Below, piece by piece: positions 34,774 through 41,815 of a DNA stretch of 53,839 nt. Each line of letters starts with the position of its first letter. Position 1 is the stretch's first letter. Origin of the DNA: Oscillospiraceae bacterium (GTDB lineage Bacteria > Bacillota > Clostridia > Oscillospirales > Ruminococcaceae). The stretch lies in NCBI GenBank assembly GCA_009777835.1, contig WRKZ01000005.1, positions 1 through 53,839 on the forward strand. Direction: 5' to 3'. The position numbers were made by a program, and so were the translations under genes. Under the pieces are notes generated by a model, which had not been told where the DNA came from, did not search any database, and saw only the letters and a list, made by a program, of their open reading frames with translations.

Positions 34774-37506
34774 ATGGGATTATTCAAAACTTATTCACAA
34801 AAAGAGCTTAAGAGAATCGAGCCGTTGAAGCAAAAGACCCTCGACCTCGAACAGCATTATCAATCCATGAGCGATAAACAGCTCAAAGAACAAACCGGGC
34901 TTTTGAAAGAACGTCTCTCCAAAGGGGAAACCCCGGATGATATTCTGCCGGATGCTTTCGCGGTCTGCCGTGAAGCTATGTGGCGAGTAATCGCAATTAA
35001 ACCCTACCCTGTTCAGATTATCGGCGGAATAGTCCTCCACCAAGGGCGAATCGCCGAGATGAAAACAGGTGAAGGTAAAACCTTCGTGGCGGCACTCCCC
35101 GCCTACCTCAACGCATTAAGCGGGCGGGGCGTTCACGTTGTGACCGTGAACGACTATCTCGCGCGGTACGGCTCTGAACTGATTGGAAGGGTCTTCCGTT
35201 TCCTGGGAATGACGGTGGGACTGATTGTTCACGAAAAACGCAATGATGAACGCAGAGCGTCGTATCATTCCGATGTAACCTACGGCACGAATAACGAGTT
35301 CGGGTTCGATTATCTGCGAGATAATATGTGCGTTCGTAAATCAGATAAAGTTCAGCGGGAACATCACTTTGCCATAGTGGACGAGGTTGACTCGATTCTT
35401 ATCGACGAGGCGCGGACTCCCTTGATTATCTCGGGCAAGGGGGATAAATCCACCGATTTATACGAGAAAGCCAACAAGCTCGTGAGGGGATTCAAGGCGA
35501 AAAAGGTTGTTGAACTCGATTCAAAAGAAGAACACGACCATTATGAGGGCGATTATATCGTTGACGAAAAGGCACGGACTTCTACACTACTCCCTTCCGG
35601 AGTAAAGAAAGCCGAGGCTTTTTTCGGCATTGAAAACTTGATGGAACCCGATAACGTTTCGATTCTCCATCACGTGAATCAAGCAATTAAAGCCCACGGA
35701 ATAATGAAACTCGATGTTGATTACGTTGTTAAAGAAGGGGAAATAATAATAGTAGACGAATTCACCGGACGTTTGATGTTAGGGAGAAGATTCAACGAGG
35801 GTCTTCACCAGGCAATCGAGGCGAAGGAGGCGGTGAAGGTCAAGAATGAATCTAAAACACTGGCGACCATCACTTTCCAGAATTTCTTCCGTTTATATGA
35901 CAAACTTTCGGGGATGACAGGTACGGCAATGACCGAGGAAGAAGAGTTCCGCGGAATTTATCGGCTTGACGTGGTGGAAATTCCTACTAATAAACCTTGT
36001 ATACGTTCCGACCATAACGACCACGTTTACAAAAACGAAAACGGAAAATTCACCGCTGTGGTTCGTCAGGTCGAGGATTGTCACGAGAGAGGTCAGCCGA
36101 TTCTCGTAGGTACGATTTCGATTGAGAAGTCGGAACAATTATCGAAAATGCTGAAGAAAAAAGGAATCAAGCATGAAGTCCTCAATGCGAAAAACCACGC
36201 ACGAGAAGCTGAAATAGTCGCCCAGGCAGGCAAGAAGAACGCAGTCACCATTGCGACTAACATGGCAGGACGCGGAACCGACATTATGCTGGGCGGTAAC
36301 GCTGAGTATCTGGCACGCTCGGAAATGCGCAAGCGAATGAGTCGCGACGGATTGGACGAAGAGTTGATTGAACAGGTCATATATGAAGCTACCGGTTTCG
36401 CCGAGACCGATAACGAACAGGTGCTTCAAGCGCGGGAAACGTTCAAAGAGTTGTTTGATAAGTACAAGGCGGAAATTGCGCCGCAAGCTGAAGAAGTCTG
36501 CGCAGTGGGAGGATTATTCATACTCGGTACCGAACGGCATGAATCCCGCCGAATCGATAATCAGTTGCGGGGGCGGGCGGGTCGTCAAGGAGACCCCGGA
36601 GAAAGCCGATTCTTCTTATCGTTGGACGATGACTTAATGAGGCTCTTCGGCGGGGAGCGAATCCATTCCATGATGGAAATGCTAAAGGTGGAAGAGGATA
36701 TTCCGATTGAAAACAGGATTCTGTCACGAACAATCGAAAACGCACAGAAAAAAGTCGAAGGCAGAAACTTCTCGGCACGTAAGCACGTTCTTGAATTTGA
36801 CGATGTTATGTCTCAGATGAGAAGTACGATTTATAAACAACGCGGAAAAGTCCTCGACGATGAAGATATAAGCGGGAATATTCGCGAAATGCTCGAAGAA
36901 ACAGTCAACGAAACAGTCGCGACTTTCTGTCAAGGTGAAATCGCCGACGACTGGAATCTCATGGGACTGCGGGAACATTTCAGAGGGTTCGCACTCACCG
37001 ACGAAAACGATTACAACTACACGGTCGAACAGTTGGGCGAAGTCTCGAAAGAAGATATTCAAGCGGATTTACTGGAACGTGCTTTGGCGCGTTATGCCGC
37101 ACAAGAGGCTGAGTTCACCTCCGAAATCATGCGAAATATTGAGCGTGATGCGTTACTCCGCAACGTTGACACTCATTGGATGGAACACATCGATGCGATG
37201 GCGGATTTGAAACAGGGGATTTATCTCCGTACTATGGGCGGAGGAAAAGACCCGGTTGTCGAATATCGGCACGAGGGCTTTGCTATGTATGATGCTATGA
37301 TTGCGTCTATTCGTGAAGATACGGTGAGAATGATTCTGACTGTTCGTAAAATGACCGAACGCGAACAAATCATGAAGGCTTTCGCCGAGAATGCGGGTGC
37401 GAAAATCACGGTCGTCCGTAAGTCGAGCGAGAAGGTCGGGCCTAACGACCCGTGTTCGTGCGGTTCGGGGAAGAAGTTCAAGAAGTGTTGCGGGATTGGT
37501 AGGTGA
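34774..37506 (+). CDS. secA: Preprotein translocase ATPase SecA
   Basis: Motor that drives secreted proteins through SecYEG. Visible parts: Walker A in EMKTGEGKTFVAALPAY (about 95-105), TVNDYLARYGSE, DEAD-box VDEVDSILIDEARTPLI, the preprotein crosslinking domain, the second motor domain with NMAGRGTDIMLGG and RGRAGRQGDPGES, and the C-terminal zinc tail DPCSCGSGKKFKKCC. 910 aa is somewhat longer than the Bacillus protein (841), typical for clostridia. It has its own promoter; its stop overlaps the ribosome site of the following hicB-like gene. Confidence 0.97.
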   Translation: MGLFKTYSQKELKRIEPLKQKTLDLEQHYQSMSDKQLKEQTGLLKERLSKGETPDDILPDAFAVCREAMWRVIAIKPYPVQIIGGIVLHQGRIAEMKTGEGKTFVAALPAYLNALSGRGVHVVTVNDYLARYGSELIGRVFRFLGMTVGLIVHEKRNDERRASYHSDVTYGTNNEFGFDYLRDNMCVRKSDKVQREHHFAIVDEVDSILIDEARTPLIISGKGDKSTDLYEKANKLVRGFKAKKVVELDSKEEHDHYEGDYIVDEKARTSTLLPSGVKKAEAFFGIENLMEPDNVSILHHVNQAIKAHGIMKLDVDYVVKEGEIIIVDEFTGRLMLGRRFNEGLHQAIEAKEAVKVKNESKTLATITFQNFFRLYDKLSGMTGTAMTEEEEFRGIYRLDVVEIPTNKPCIRSDHNDHVYKNENGKFTAVVRQVEDCHERGQPILVGTISIEKSEQLSKMLKKKGIKHEVLNAKNHAREAEIVAQAGKKNAVTIATNMAGRGTDIMLGGNAEYLARSEMRKRMSRDGLDEELIEQVIYEATGFAETDNEQVLQARETFKELFDKYKAEIAPQAEEVCAVGGLFILGTERHESRRIDNQLRGRAGRQGDPGESRFFLSLDDDLMRLFGGERIHSMMEMLKVEEDIPIENRILSRTIENAQKKVEGRNFSARKHVLEFDDVMSQMRSTIYKQRGKVLDDEDISGNIREMLEETVNETVATFCQGEIADDWNLMGLREHFRGFALTDENDYNYTVEQLGEVSKEDIQADLLERALARYAAQEAEFTSEIMRNIERDALLRNVDTHWMEHIDAMADLKQGIYLRTMGGGKDPVVEYRHEGFAMYDAMIASIREDTVRMILTVRKMTEREQIMKAFAENAGAKITVVRKSSEKVGPNDPCSCGSGKKFKKCCGIGR

Positions 37507-37511
37507 GTGCT

Positions 37512-37736
37512 ATGAAACGTAATCTAACGGTCGTTATCGAGAAAGACAACGAGTCCGGGGGGTATGTCGGTTTCGCCCCCGGTATACCCGGGGCGCATAC
37601 CTGTGCCGAATCAATCGAACAATTGTATGTGAATCTTAAAGAAGTAACCGAATTGTGTCTTGAGGAAATGAACAGCGAACAAAAGCGGGAAATCCCGGAC
37701 TTTTTCGCAATCTCGCATATTGAGGTCGCGGTATGA
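37512..37736 (+). CDS. HicB-family (UPF0150) antitoxin-like protein, orphan
   Basis: 74 aa with the HicB partial RNase H-like fold: LTVVIEKDNESGGYVGFAPG, PGAHTCAESIEQLYVNLKE and the ending HIEVAV that in many pairs directly precedes hicA. The SD AGGTGA covers the secA stop. HicB neutralises the HicA mRNA interferase, but no hicA follows: only a 5-codon ORF starting at the expected ATGA overlap. It may now have a separate role, or be a remnant kept by its position in the secA operon. Confidence 0.75.
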   Translation: MKRNLTVVIEKDNESGGYVGFAPGIPGAHTCAESIEQLYVNLKEVTELCLEEMNSEQKREIPDFFAISHIEVAV

Positions 37737-37750
37737 GTAAGGTTGATTAG
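37733..37750 (+). pseudogene. Five-codon stub at the expected hicA start
   Basis: ATG overlapping the hicB stop as ATGA and reading M-S-K-V-D-stop. HicA proteins following this HicB type often begin M-S-K/M-T-K with the same overlap, so the stub could be what remains of hicA after deletion. Only 11 bp separate it from the ATPase start codon. This is inference from position and five codons. Confidence 0.35.
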
Positions 37751-37761
37751 GGAGGTAGGCT

Positions 37762-38832
37762 ATGGCTATAGAACGTGTGGAAATCAAGGATTTCCAGGTT
37801 TTTAAGGGCGAATTCACGTGCGACTTCTGTCCGGGCGTGAACGTCCTTATCGGCGGTAACGGCACGGGTAAGAGTACGTTGATGAGAGTGATGTGCCGTC
37901 TTTGTGACAACAAAGATACGGAATATTACTTTTTTGAAAACAATTGGCTTGGAAGGTTTGGTGATTACCCGTTTGAATATTTAAGAATGGAAACAATAAG
38001 CGAAGGTGTAGTTAATCGCATCAGCGTTAAATCCATTCGTATTGATGGCAAGGGTGATTTAGGCGATAGAGTGATTAAAGACGGAAGATGGGTTGAAGTC
38101 CCTATGACTGACGATTATACAGAAACGGAAACGATGATTTGGGGTGATTGTATACAAGAAATTGTATATACTCAAAAGGGACATAAAAACACTCCCTCAA
38201 TGTTTATTCCCGAGAACGACCTGCTCTCCAACGCACGAGGTTTGGTAGAAACAGCAACATATGGGAATGCGCAACTTTTGTTGCCGGAAGTTGAGGTTAT
38301 TGCAAAATCCCGTGTGCTTCCCTCTGTGCCGGAACAACCATTATACCGCAAAATCTGTGACTTAATCGGTGGCGAACCGGAACACGATGGTCAAAGTTTC
38401 TTTATGAAACGTCAAGGTATTGACAAACGTATACCATTCACGATGGAAGCAAGCGGTTTCCGCAAGTTCGGACTATTGGCTCTGCTCGTTCGCAATGAAA
38501 TGATTAAACCCGGCACTGTACTCTTCTGGGACGAACCAGAGAACAGTCTCAACCCGTTGCTAATGGAAAAACTCGTGGAAATCTTAATAGAGTTATCGCG
38601 AAACAAAGTACAGATTTTCCTTGCAACGCACAGTGAATTACTTGCAAAGGAAATCGACATACAACGCAAAGAGAGCGATGAAATCAAGTTCCTTTCGCTG
38701 TATGAAGACGATGGCAAAATCAAAGCAAATTCAAACAAACGTTTCGACCTGCTCGAACCGAATCATCTAATCTCTGTTCCTGTCAAGCAGTATGACAGGG
38801 AAATTCAAAAGGAGCTTGGCGGAAATGAATGA
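37762..38832 (+). CDS. AAA/ABC-type ATPase (AAA_15/21-like, OLD/PtuA-related)
   Basis: An SMC/ABC-like ATPase of the kind used in defence and repair modules. Walker A GGNGTGKST (31-39) follows IERVEIKDFQVFKG; an ABC-like signature region EASGFRKFGLLALL (about 228) and Walker B GTVLFWDEPENSLNP (about 253) precede the H-loop ATHSE (about 290). The middle (about 60-210) has no coiled coil and is not recognised. GGGAGG lies 7-10 bases before the ATG. The last 8 bp overlap the next gene, so the two form a pair. Composition past about 37900 looks more A/T-rich than secA and the PBP gene, by eye, suggesting transfer. Confidence 0.85.
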   Translation: MAIERVEIKDFQVFKGEFTCDFCPGVNVLIGGNGTGKSTLMRVMCRLCDNKDTEYYFFENNWLGRFGDYPFEYLRMETISEGVVNRISVKSIRIDGKGDLGDRVIKDGRWVEVPMTDDYTETETMIWGDCIQEIVYTQKGHKNTPSMFIPENDLLSNARGLVETATYGNAQLLLPEVEVIAKSRVLPSVPEQPLYRKICDLIGGEPEHDGQSFFMKRQGIDKRIPFTMEASGFRKFGLLALLVRNEMIKPGTVLFWDEPENSLNPLLMEKLVEILIELSRNKVQIFLATHSELLAKEIDIQRKESDEIKFLSLYEDDGKIKANSNKRFDLLEPNHLISVPVKQYDREIQKELGGNE

Positions 38833-39319
38833 TTATATTGAAGAAAGCGATATGAATTTTATTCCCGATAATTCCTTTCGTATTGAAAAATCGAAAGTGT
38901 ACGATGACTTGAAACATTCGAAAATTAAAACGGTCGAGTTTATCCGGGTCAAAGGTGACAGATTATTATTATTCGTTGAAGCAAAACCACGTCTGCATGA
39001 CCCGGATAAATTACAGAGAAACGTCAAAATTTTCGAAGAGGAAATCATTGAAATCAAAGATAAATTCATACACGCTCTAAATCTTTTTTCGGCTATAAAA
39101 GTCGGGGTTAAAGAAGCGGATTTTCCCGATGATTTTGTCTTACCAAAAAGGCTTTCGCTTACGTTTATACTTGTTGTTAAGAAAAACAGCGAGAGGGAAT
39201 CTCTAAAAGCACGTGAAAAGCTTATGTCTCTTTTGCCAAACTACTTAAAAACAATCTGGGAACCGAAAGTTTTTGTCTTGAATTATACTCAAGCTAAAGA
39301 ACAAAAACTAACAGTCTAA
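38825..39319 (+). CDS. Unknown partner of the ATPase, possible PD-(D/E)XK nuclease fold
   Basis: 164 aa from the ATG at 38825 (AAAGGAGCTTGGCGGAA before it; the track start is 11 codons early inside the ATPase gene). Not a recognised family. A beta-hairpin VEFIRVKGDRLLLFVEAKPR offers E38-x13-E52-A-K54, the spacing of a PD-(D/E)XK active site, after a helix with E21; this is a motif-level guess. The C-terminal half alternates helices and strands (RLSLTFILVVKKN) and ends EPKVFVLNYTQ. Overlap with the ATPase gene and A/T-rich composition suggest a two-gene module. Confidence 0.6.
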   Translation: MNDYIEESDMNFIPDNSFRIEKSKVYDDLKHSKIKTVEFIRVKGDRLLLFVEAKPRLHDPDKLQRNVKIFEEEIIEIKDKFIHALNLFSAIKVGVKEADFPDDFVLPKRLSLTFILVVKKNSERESLKAREKLMSLLPNYLKTIWEPKVFVLNYTQAKEQKLTV

Positions 39320-39334
39320 CACAGGGGGTCACTC

Positions 39335-41815
39335 ATGCACAAAATATACCATAATTTACCCGAAGAACCGCCGGAAAAACTCAAAAGCGCACCAAAACCG
39401 AAATCCGACAAACGTCCCCGCAGGAAGGGCAAACTCACACCGGTTAAAGGGGTGAAACACGTCCTGTCGGTTATAGGGACGACTTTTCTGACGCTGTTTC
39501 TCATAATCGTGATTACCGGGTGCGTCGTCGCAGTTGCTTTGAGCGTGTATATCACGCAGTTCGCCGAATCCATGTACGACGTGGATTTACAGGCGGTGGA
39601 ACTCAGCTATAACAGCTTCCTTTTAGCAAAGAATCCGCATTACAATCCCGAAGACCCCGAATCGGAGGAATACATTGAACTGTTTGCGTTGAGTGCGGAC
39701 GAAAATCGAATTTGGGTGGATTTGGAAGACATTCCGCAACACGCAATAGATGCGCTCGTAGCGACGGAAGACAAACGCTTCTACGACCATGCCGGGGTAG
39801 ACTGGTATCGGACGGCGGGGGCGACACTTTCGGAATTTGCGGGAATAGGCGAGGCACGCGGCGGCGGTTCAACCATTACGCAACAGTTAGTCAGAGACAT
39901 CACAAAAGACGACCAGGTCAACATAGGCAGAAAACTGCGCGAAATCTTCCGGGCAATCAGCTTTGAACAAAAATATTCCAAACACGATATTCTGGAGAGT
40001 TATCTTAATCGTGTCGCTTTGGGGAACACAGTATACGGAATAGGCTCTGCCGCGAAACATTACTTCGATAAAGAAGCGAGTGAGCTCACCATAGCCGAAT
40101 CTTGTATACTCATAGGTCTGCTTCCGTCACCGGTTTCATATAATCCTTATTATAATCCCGAACGTTCGCGATACTGGCAGAAGAACGCAATCTGGAATAT
40201 GTACGACCAAGGGTATATTTCGTTTGCGGAGTATGAGGAGGCATTGAATGAACAGGTGCAGTTCCGTCTCCCGATTAGCAGTCAGTGCCGTTGCCCTGAA
40301 GAGCTTCCTCGCTGTGACGGTGCGTACTTCGGTTATATAGACGAGAGGTATGAGGAATTCTACGGTCTGCAGGGCAATGCCGATGATGAAGACTTGTACT
40401 TCCAAAATGTCCCTATGGAGGATTTAATCAATCCGTTTAAATTCACCGAATATGCAGTTCGGCATAACTGGTACATCGATGCCGCGCTGAAGGAAATTAC
40501 CGCCGATTTAGCCGCACTTAACGAAATTCCTTATGAGAATGCCGCCGCACTGATTCGAAAAGGCGGGTATAAAATCTACCTTTCGATGGACATCGAAATG
40601 CAGGACAAATTGGAGGCTATTTACAACGACCCGTATTTAGTGCGAAACCCATCCTACCCGTATGCTGCGGGAACCCCCGCACGGAACACTATTCAGAGTG
40701 CGTTTGTTGTGATGGATATGCACGGAAACGTAGTCGCGGTAGCAGGGGGGGTCGGTGACAAACCCGGTAATGATGCCTTCAACAGGGCGAATCAAGCCCG
40801 ACGAAACATCGGTTCTACCATTAAGCCTTTCGGCGTGTATGCCCCCGCAATTGACATGAACAAAATCACCTATTCGTCCATGTTGCTTGACCTTGCGGGG
40901 CTAATCGACGACCCGGGCGCACCCGGTCAATTTAAAGACTGGCCGGAAAACTACGGCGGCAGTCTCGGTTCGGGAAGCAATTACGCAGCATGGTACGCTT
41001 TAGCGAAGTCCACCAACACCGTTTCCGCACGGACGATGCACCTGCTCGGCCCAAATACCGCATTAAACTTCCTGCAGGAGCGTTTGGGGATTACCACACT
41101 CACCACGAAACAGCACTTGACTTATTCGTCACTTGCAACCGGTTCTATGGAAGTTAAACTGCACGAATTAGCCGGGGCGTTCCAGATTTTCGGAACGGGG
41201 GGGATTTATTACAAACCCGCCTTCTATTCGCGGATTGAAGACCATAACGGGAATATAATCATGGAGAGAGACTCTGTGGGTTCGCAGGCAATCGGTGCGG
41301 ATTCAGCGTGGGTAGTAAACCGAATGATGCGGGACGTTGTGGAAGACCCGAATGAAATGGGTCGCCGTGCGCAATTGCCTATGCCGAACGTTGAAATAAT
41401 CGGTAAGACGGGAACAGCTAACGATATGTCTGACGTTTTGTTCGCCGGATTAACCCCCGATTATGTAGCGGTAATCCGTCTCGGCTATGACGACAACCGC
41501 GCGCTGTCGAATCAACCGGGCGGCGGTGACTGGTGGAGACCGCCTACAATCGTCTGGGGGGAAATCATGTCAAAACTAATCCCTATCGACCAACCCCGCG
41601 GTTGGGCAGAGGTGAAAAACAAATCCGGGGCTGTCGAGGACTACTACTGCGCTTCGACGGGATTGATGTACGGGCCGAATTGTGCGGAGGATGGCGCAGG
41701 CCGAAGGGTGGGATACTATAAATCCTCGAACATTCCGGCAAGATGTACGCACGATGCTACGGCATGGGCAATGATAGAACAAGAACAAAAACCGCTGTAT
41801 CGGATTTTGAGTTAG
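39335..41815 (+). CDS. Class A penicillin-binding protein (transglycosylase/transpeptidase)
   Basis: Builds and crosslinks peptidoglycan. A basic cytoplasmic tail (1-45), one membrane helix (about 46-70), a GT51 domain with TEDKRFYDHAGVDW (catalytic Glu about 143), GGSTITQQLVR and a long C-terminal transpeptidase with catalytic Ser494 in GSTIKP and KTGTAND (about 690). 826 aa is typical of PBP1a. A Cys pair in the region CRCPEELPRC (about 315) is unusual for the family and may form a disulfide. AGGGGGT precedes the ATG; it follows the ATPase pair by 15 bp. Confidence 0.95.
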   Translation: MHKIYHNLPEEPPEKLKSAPKPKSDKRPRRKGKLTPVKGVKHVLSVIGTTFLTLFLIIVITGCVVAVALSVYITQFAESMYDVDLQAVELSYNSFLLAKNPHYNPEDPESEEYIELFALSADENRIWVDLEDIPQHAIDALVATEDKRFYDHAGVDWYRTAGATLSEFAGIGEARGGGSTITQQLVRDITKDDQVNIGRKLREIFRAISFEQKYSKHDILESYLNRVALGNTVYGIGSAAKHYFDKEASELTIAESCILIGLLPSPVSYNPYYNPERSRYWQKNAIWNMYDQGYISFAEYEEALNEQVQFRLPISSQCRCPEELPRCDGAYFGYIDERYEEFYGLQGNADDEDLYFQNVPMEDLINPFKFTEYAVRHNWYIDAALKEITADLAALNEIPYENAAALIRKGGYKIYLSMDIEMQDKLEAIYNDPYLVRNPSYPYAAGTPARNTIQSAFVVMDMHGNVVAVAGGVGDKPGNDAFNRANQARRNIGSTIKPFGVYAPAIDMNKITYSSMLLDLAGLIDDPGAPGQFKDWPENYGGSLGSGSNYAAWYALAKSTNTVSARTMHLLGPNTALNFLQERLGITTLTTKQHLTYSSLATGSMEVKLHELAGAFQIFGTGGIYYKPAFYSRIEDHNGNIIMERDSVGSQAIGADSAWVVNRMMRDVVEDPNEMGRRAQLPMPNVEIIGKTGTANDMSDVLFAGLTPDYVAVIRLGYDDNRALSNQPGGGDWWRPPTIVWGEIMSKLIPIDQPRGWAEVKNKSGAVEDYYCASTGLMYGPNCAEDGAGRRVGYYKSSNIPARCTHDATAWAMIEQEQKPLYRILS

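Follow-up and report, generated by a model that had tools for sequence, protein, structure and literature searches.

What is the two-gene cassette that lies between secA and a penicillin-binding protein (PBP) gene in this Oscillospiraceae contig, and is it, as an earlier note on the same DNA had proposed, an undescribed defence module? The window analysed here is the whole stretch of 53,839 nucleotides, in which the cassette (the genes HEC-02A and HEC-02B, hereafter also A and B) and its surroundings are arranged as follows.

34774..37506, + strand: secA, a housekeeping gene, left flank
37503..37736, + strand: orphan HicB-like antitoxin gene, 77 aa (PF15919, E = 3.3e-6)
37733..37750, + strand: hicA start remnant of five codons (ATG AGT AAG GTT GAT TAG), left edge of the cassette
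37750..37755, + strand: Shine-Dalgarno-like sequence GGGAGG, for HEC-02A
37762..38832, + strand: HEC-02A gene, encoding a 356-aa ABC-type (AAA_21/AAA_15) ATPase
38810..38814, + strand: Shine-Dalgarno-like sequence AGGAG, for HEC-02B, within the 3' end of HEC-02A
38825..39319, + strand: HEC-02B gene, encoding a 164-aa putative nuclease, PD-(D/E)XK-like
39335..41815, + strand: PBP gene, encoding a penicillin-binding protein, right flank

Re-reading of the sequence confirmed the two open reading frames with the motifs, lengths and 8-bp overlap that the earlier note had given; the 77-aa HicB-like ORF between secA and HEC-02A had been omitted from that note. The longest reading of the second frame starts at 38792 and has the same end (39319; 175 aa), and the ATG at 38825 (164 aa), preceded by the AGGAG at 38810, is the better start; this choice gives the overlap of 38825..38832. 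In the homologues of HEC-02B, the conserved stretch opens just past this ATG. The GC contents of HEC-02A and HEC-02B are 0.430 and 0.341, respectively, compared with 0.482 in secA, 0.503 in PBP and 0.485 in nagB, which bears out the impression that the pair is more A/T-rich than its neighbours (0.482-0.503). In 10 of the 11 homologous loci compared, the pair likewise had a higher A/T content than its flanks of 3 kb, the exception being a locus of Spirochaetes (L006).

The module is not undescribed. Judged by profile matches, the pair is a HEC-02 system, a family already catalogued in PADLOC-DB 2.0.0 (2023): both proteins cover the HEC-02 models nearly full length, and the gene order and the overlap are the same as in the family. 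HEC-02A matched PDLC04213 (residues 1-353 on profile positions 1-335 of 337, E = 8.3e-69), with far weaker runner-up PADLOC families (AriA, 8e-24; AbiLi, 4e-16; GajA, 1e-15), and HEC-02B matched PDLC04221 (profile positions 1-169 of 171, E = 3.3e-26) and no other PADLOC family. The series of Hma-embedded candidates, HEC-02 included, is reportedly that of a 2024 preprint by Payne et al. A literature search, outside which this source preprint lay, returned no account of HEC-02 itself as a defence system. HEC stands for Hma-embedded candidate, a class identified via ‘guilt by embedding’, of which several members, including HEC-06, are antiviral (PMC12988326), and HEC-05 is BrxU (PMC11411939). The window copy differs from the reference family in that it is not Hma-embedded and sits in the gene row of secA and PBP; no match to HmaC was found in the window's genome assembly. 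Embedding in Hma gave the family its name and is not demanded of every copy. Its HEC-02A belongs to a diverged clade, the A proteins of the plasmid and Clostridia homologues being only ~18-22% identical to it. Two other PADLOC names appear to be swapped: in the matches to 37762..38832 of the window and to L009:9490-9840, PDLC04146, a model of 344 positions named HEC-02B, hits the ATPase, and PDLC04145, a model of 170 positions named HEC-02A, hits the small partner.

The sequence of HEC-02A contains the motifs IGGNGTGKST, VLFWDEPENSLNP and ATHSE, which provide a Walker A (GGNGTGKS), a signature-like EASGFRK, a Walker B (LFWDEPE) and an H-loop (ATHSE); the ATPase motifs are kept in every HEC-02A (11 homologues). 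The protein matched AAA_21 in Pfam (E = 2.4e-23), and the core of its AlphaFold2 model (pLDDT 73) resembles the heads of Rad50 and SMC, PtuA (8eea/8sux), the retron I-A ATPase, Eco8, OLD and GajA (E = 1e-10 to 1e-12). According to this model, HEC-02A is an SMC/Rad50-type head, a class common to PtuA, GajA and OLD. No Toprim match was found in it with Pfam, and its 356 aa comprise the ATPase head only.

The partner was expected not to be a member of a housekeeping family, and HEC-02B matched none. It had no Pfam or NCBIfam match, Pfam and PHROGs profiles gave scattered weak matches only against ten HEC-02B members, and sequence and profile searches of PDB found no solved relative. Structure prediction of the partner alone, which the earlier note had suggested, gave an AlphaFold2 model (ten sequences; pLDDT 88, pTM 0.86) of alpha-beta-hairpin-alpha-beta topology, which is probably PD-(D/E)XK-like. 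The predicted elements (helix 24-32, strands 39-43 and 47-54, long helix 64-93 and strand 111-118) would fit the PD-(D/E)XK core alpha-beta-beta-beta-alpha-beta, but all Foldseek matches in PDB and BFVD were at E >=0.001. E21, E38, E52-x-K54 and K80 are identical across 11 aligned homologues. The E-x13-E-x-K pattern that had been placed in a beta-hairpin is present as E38-x13-E52-A-K54, with E38 at the start and E52-x-K54 at the end of the predicted hairpin, and E21 is part of the first helical segment. HEC-02B contains the pattern of the PD-(D/E)XK superfamily, namely a helix E, a strand D/E and an E-x-K on the next strand (E21, E38, E52 and K54), and these conserved residues are, as read from the alignment, its active-site pattern with E38 replacing the classical first D. 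The top Foldseek matches in PDB, each weak, included arenavirus/hantavirus cap-snatching endonucleases, FokI, Mus81-Eme1, XPF, Card1 and SduA, and also Zip2:Spo16; many of the top entries are, by entry name, what we take to be PD-(D/E)XK folds. Since no Foldseek match fell below 0.001 and no solved relative was found, the assignment rests on topology and motif, by which HEC-02B is likely a nuclease of PD-(D/E)XK-like fold. Its substrate could be DNA or RNA.

The same structural evidence can be read differently. Rad50 and SMC heads are among the closest solved folds of HEC-02A, and the weak Foldseek scores of HEC-02B include the Zip2:Spo16 complex, as might be expected if B were a PD-(D/E)XK fold without catalytic activity, or another kind of subunit that binds nucleic acid, and the two proteins formed a Rad50/RecF-like repair or chromosome-structure factor, not a defence system. 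Such a role is quite improbable given that E...E...ExK is fully kept in every aligned HEC-02B, that the pair is absent from 70 congeners and appears to have been transferred across phyla, and that the family is associated with PADLOC and Hma.

The gene row into which the cassette has been inserted varies among relatives, and the pair is not universal behind secA, in agreement with the idea of an accessory module. Among congeners with a readable secA-PBP site, secA and PBP are ~110 bp apart in G003, a decayed lipoprotein-like fragment lies between them in G010, and the order in G021 is secA–hicB–hicA–424-aa lipoprotein–PBP; that in the window is secA–hicB, hicA remnant, A–B–PBP. The HicB of the window is 65% identical to the HicB of the G021 hicBA pair behind secA, and the hicA of G021 starts with ATGAGTAAA (ATG AGT AAA) and has the same overlap with hicB. 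Because the first codons of the window remnant match this start at the equivalent hicB overlap, we infer that the HEC-02 cassette replaced hicA and what followed it, leaving an orphan antitoxin gene, in an order of events deduced from one genome.

HEC-02B was found in 1 of the 71 genomes of the genus, in 6/197 genomes of the order sample and, with the PADLOC model, in 3/300 of the phylum sample, and HEC-02A was absent from the 39 congeners searched for it. The SecA and HEC-02B identities are 59 and 35%, respectively, for a genome of the same order (G048), and 50 and 49% for the Spirochaetes locus L006. The distribution is patchy and these identities are discordant, and the cassette is best explained as an accessory element that has been horizontally acquired and crosses phyla. 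That one genome only of the genus carries it, and that B is missing or broken in related loci (L015 and L009b), might also point to a decaying or non-functional recent insertion without selection. However, both frames are intact, the motif residues have all been kept although the proteins differ from their relatives by ~50%, and the overlap survives together with the two Shine-Dalgarno sites, which makes this explanation hardly credible.

Scanning a three-member HEC-02B alignment against genome contigs yielded ten loci, and the contig scan, further genome searches and one Comamonas plasmid gave 17 distinct loci in total, including the window. The six nearest HEC-02B loci are in MAGs of Spirochaetes, Peptococcaceae, Prevotellaceae, Synergistaceae, Clostridiales and Deltaproteobacteria, whose isolate codes resemble those of what are presumably termite-gut sets. 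No HEC-02B relatives were found in IMG/VR viral contigs or, with the window B as query, in plasmids or phages; one plasmid was found by using more distant HEC-02B members as queries. In the Comamonas thiooxydans plasmid pNR4028_IMP1 (L055:8194-10534), the HEC-02 pair adjoins a recombinase gene, with TniB, a Mu-type transposase and IS26 nearby.

As the earlier note had anticipated, the homologues co-occur as a pair: A is located directly before B in 15 of the 17 loci, usually with an overlap of 0-38 nt. L011 contains HEC-02B without an upstream A, and L015 contains only a B fragment. Because the pair has been kept in many unrelated genomes, the A-B pairing is more than chance. The identity matrices of A and B are correlated (r = 0.67; 0 of 5000 permutations as high), a value inflated by related pairs and clade structure, and this correlated divergence, partly due to the clade structure, supports co-inheritance of the two genes. 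In L009 (6992-10088), two HEC-02 pairs in tandem occupy exactly the space from HmaB to HmaC (both E = 0), and this Hma-embedded arrangement is the strongest link of HEC-02 to defence. The expectation that homologues would lie beside defence genes held for this locus; most of the other homologous loci read sit among ordinary genes.

These neighbourhoods also bear on a reading of the pair as a selfish toxin-antitoxin-like addiction module, in which a toxic B restrained by A would stabilise the cassette and phage defence would be incidental or absent. The cassette occupies the place of a lost HicA toxin beside an orphan hicB, and HEC-02 occurs on the Comamonas plasmid beside a recombinase gene, both of which would suit such a module. 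We nevertheless consider it unlikely, since the B of L011, with no upstream A, argues against strong B toxicity there, homologues lie inside a Hma defence locus, and HEC-02A resembles defence ATPases, not antitoxins.

The reading we prefer is that the pair is probably a horizontally acquired HEC-02 defence system, in which an ABC ATPase with an SMC/Rad50-type head gates a nuclease of the PD-(D/E)XK type. Of the ATPase plus effector nuclease design proposed earlier, the ABC/OLD-type ATPase, the PD-(D/E)XK-like partner and the link of the family to defence were upheld; the nuclease activity, the A-B complex, the cue, the target and the defence phenotype are what we infer. A and B would be translated together from the overlapping operon, and HEC-02A, with or without ATP turnover, would keep HEC-02B inactive in a complex. 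Acting as an ATP-dependent sensor and scaffold, HEC-02A would sense an infection cue and then license or release HEC-02B, which would cut nucleic acid, be it tRNA or the DNA of phage or cell, and thereby stop phage growth, with gating as in Septu (PtuA+PtuB) and PARIS (AriA+AriB).

The OLD, GajA and retron Eco8 effector ATPases, whose heads are related to that of HEC-02A, carry a fused Toprim nuclease. HEC-02A differs from them in being a head only, with the putative nuclease on a separate chain, and membership in Gabija or OLD was rejected because Pfam revealed no fused Toprim in it. In Septu, PtuA belongs to the same ABC ATPase head class as HEC-02A and is likewise co-encoded with a small nuclease, and the system cleaves tRNA-Tyr upon infection (PMC13096335). 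PtuB is, however, an HNH protein, whereas HEC-02B looks PD-(D/E)XK-like; HEC-02B has no HNH or PtuB match in PADLOC or Pfam and PtuA models score far below HEC-02A, so that the pair was not assigned to Septu. PARIS also consists of two genes, for an ATPase and a small nuclease, its AriA models match HEC-02A (E = 8e-24), and it, too, cleaves tRNA (PMC12409363). Membership in PARIS was rejected as well, since HEC-02B lacks a Toprim or AriB match and the HEC-02A model scores 8e-69 versus 8e-24 for AriA.

At L061 (161-2016), the gene after an A of the window's clade encodes a different type of B (LKIVDFIADDGEKILFIEVK; VDF...FIEVK), and the same applies to the second pair of L009. The A clade of the window is paired with at least two B types, E-F...EAK and D-F...IEVK (L061 and L009b). 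Because window-clade A genes occur with a different B in these two places, effector swapping within HEC-02 is suggested, and the existence of many HEC-02B models in PADLOC would fit it. It is conceivable, and put forward here only tentatively, that HEC-02 represents a third ATPase-nuclease defence design beside those with HNH (Septu) and Toprim (PARIS) effectors, in which one ATPase lineage swaps PD-(D/E)XK effectors and a minimal cassette spreads into housekeeping operons, here replacing a HicA toxin gene. With the present analysis, a catalogued family gains candidate catalytic residues, a predicted partner fold, an insertion scar and cross-phylum evidence. If the proposed mechanism is true, the ATPase-gated nuclease systems, among them several that act on tRNA, would acquire a PD-(D/E)XK arm.

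Several individual loci have features of their own. At L012 (5958-10267), cysD- and cysN-like genes (named by eye) flank the HEC-02 pair, which runs in the same direction and starts 4 nt past the cysD end. At L013 (2422-4287), the HEC-02 pair is preceded, ~2.7 kb upstream, by a second candidate defence pair, PDC-M07A/B. The two tandem A genes of L009 are 91% identical over their 5' 98 bp and diverged in the remainder, and the second B (L009b) is split over two frames. A role of the HEC-02A 5' end as a DNA-level recombination handle was considered and rejected: the share of identical codons, counted at positions with identical residues, was 0.45 in codons 1-28 versus 0.41 in codons 140-356, with no general excess. 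Raised codon identity at the 5' end was found only in the L009 tandem copies (20/25), where it would represent local conversion or duplication.
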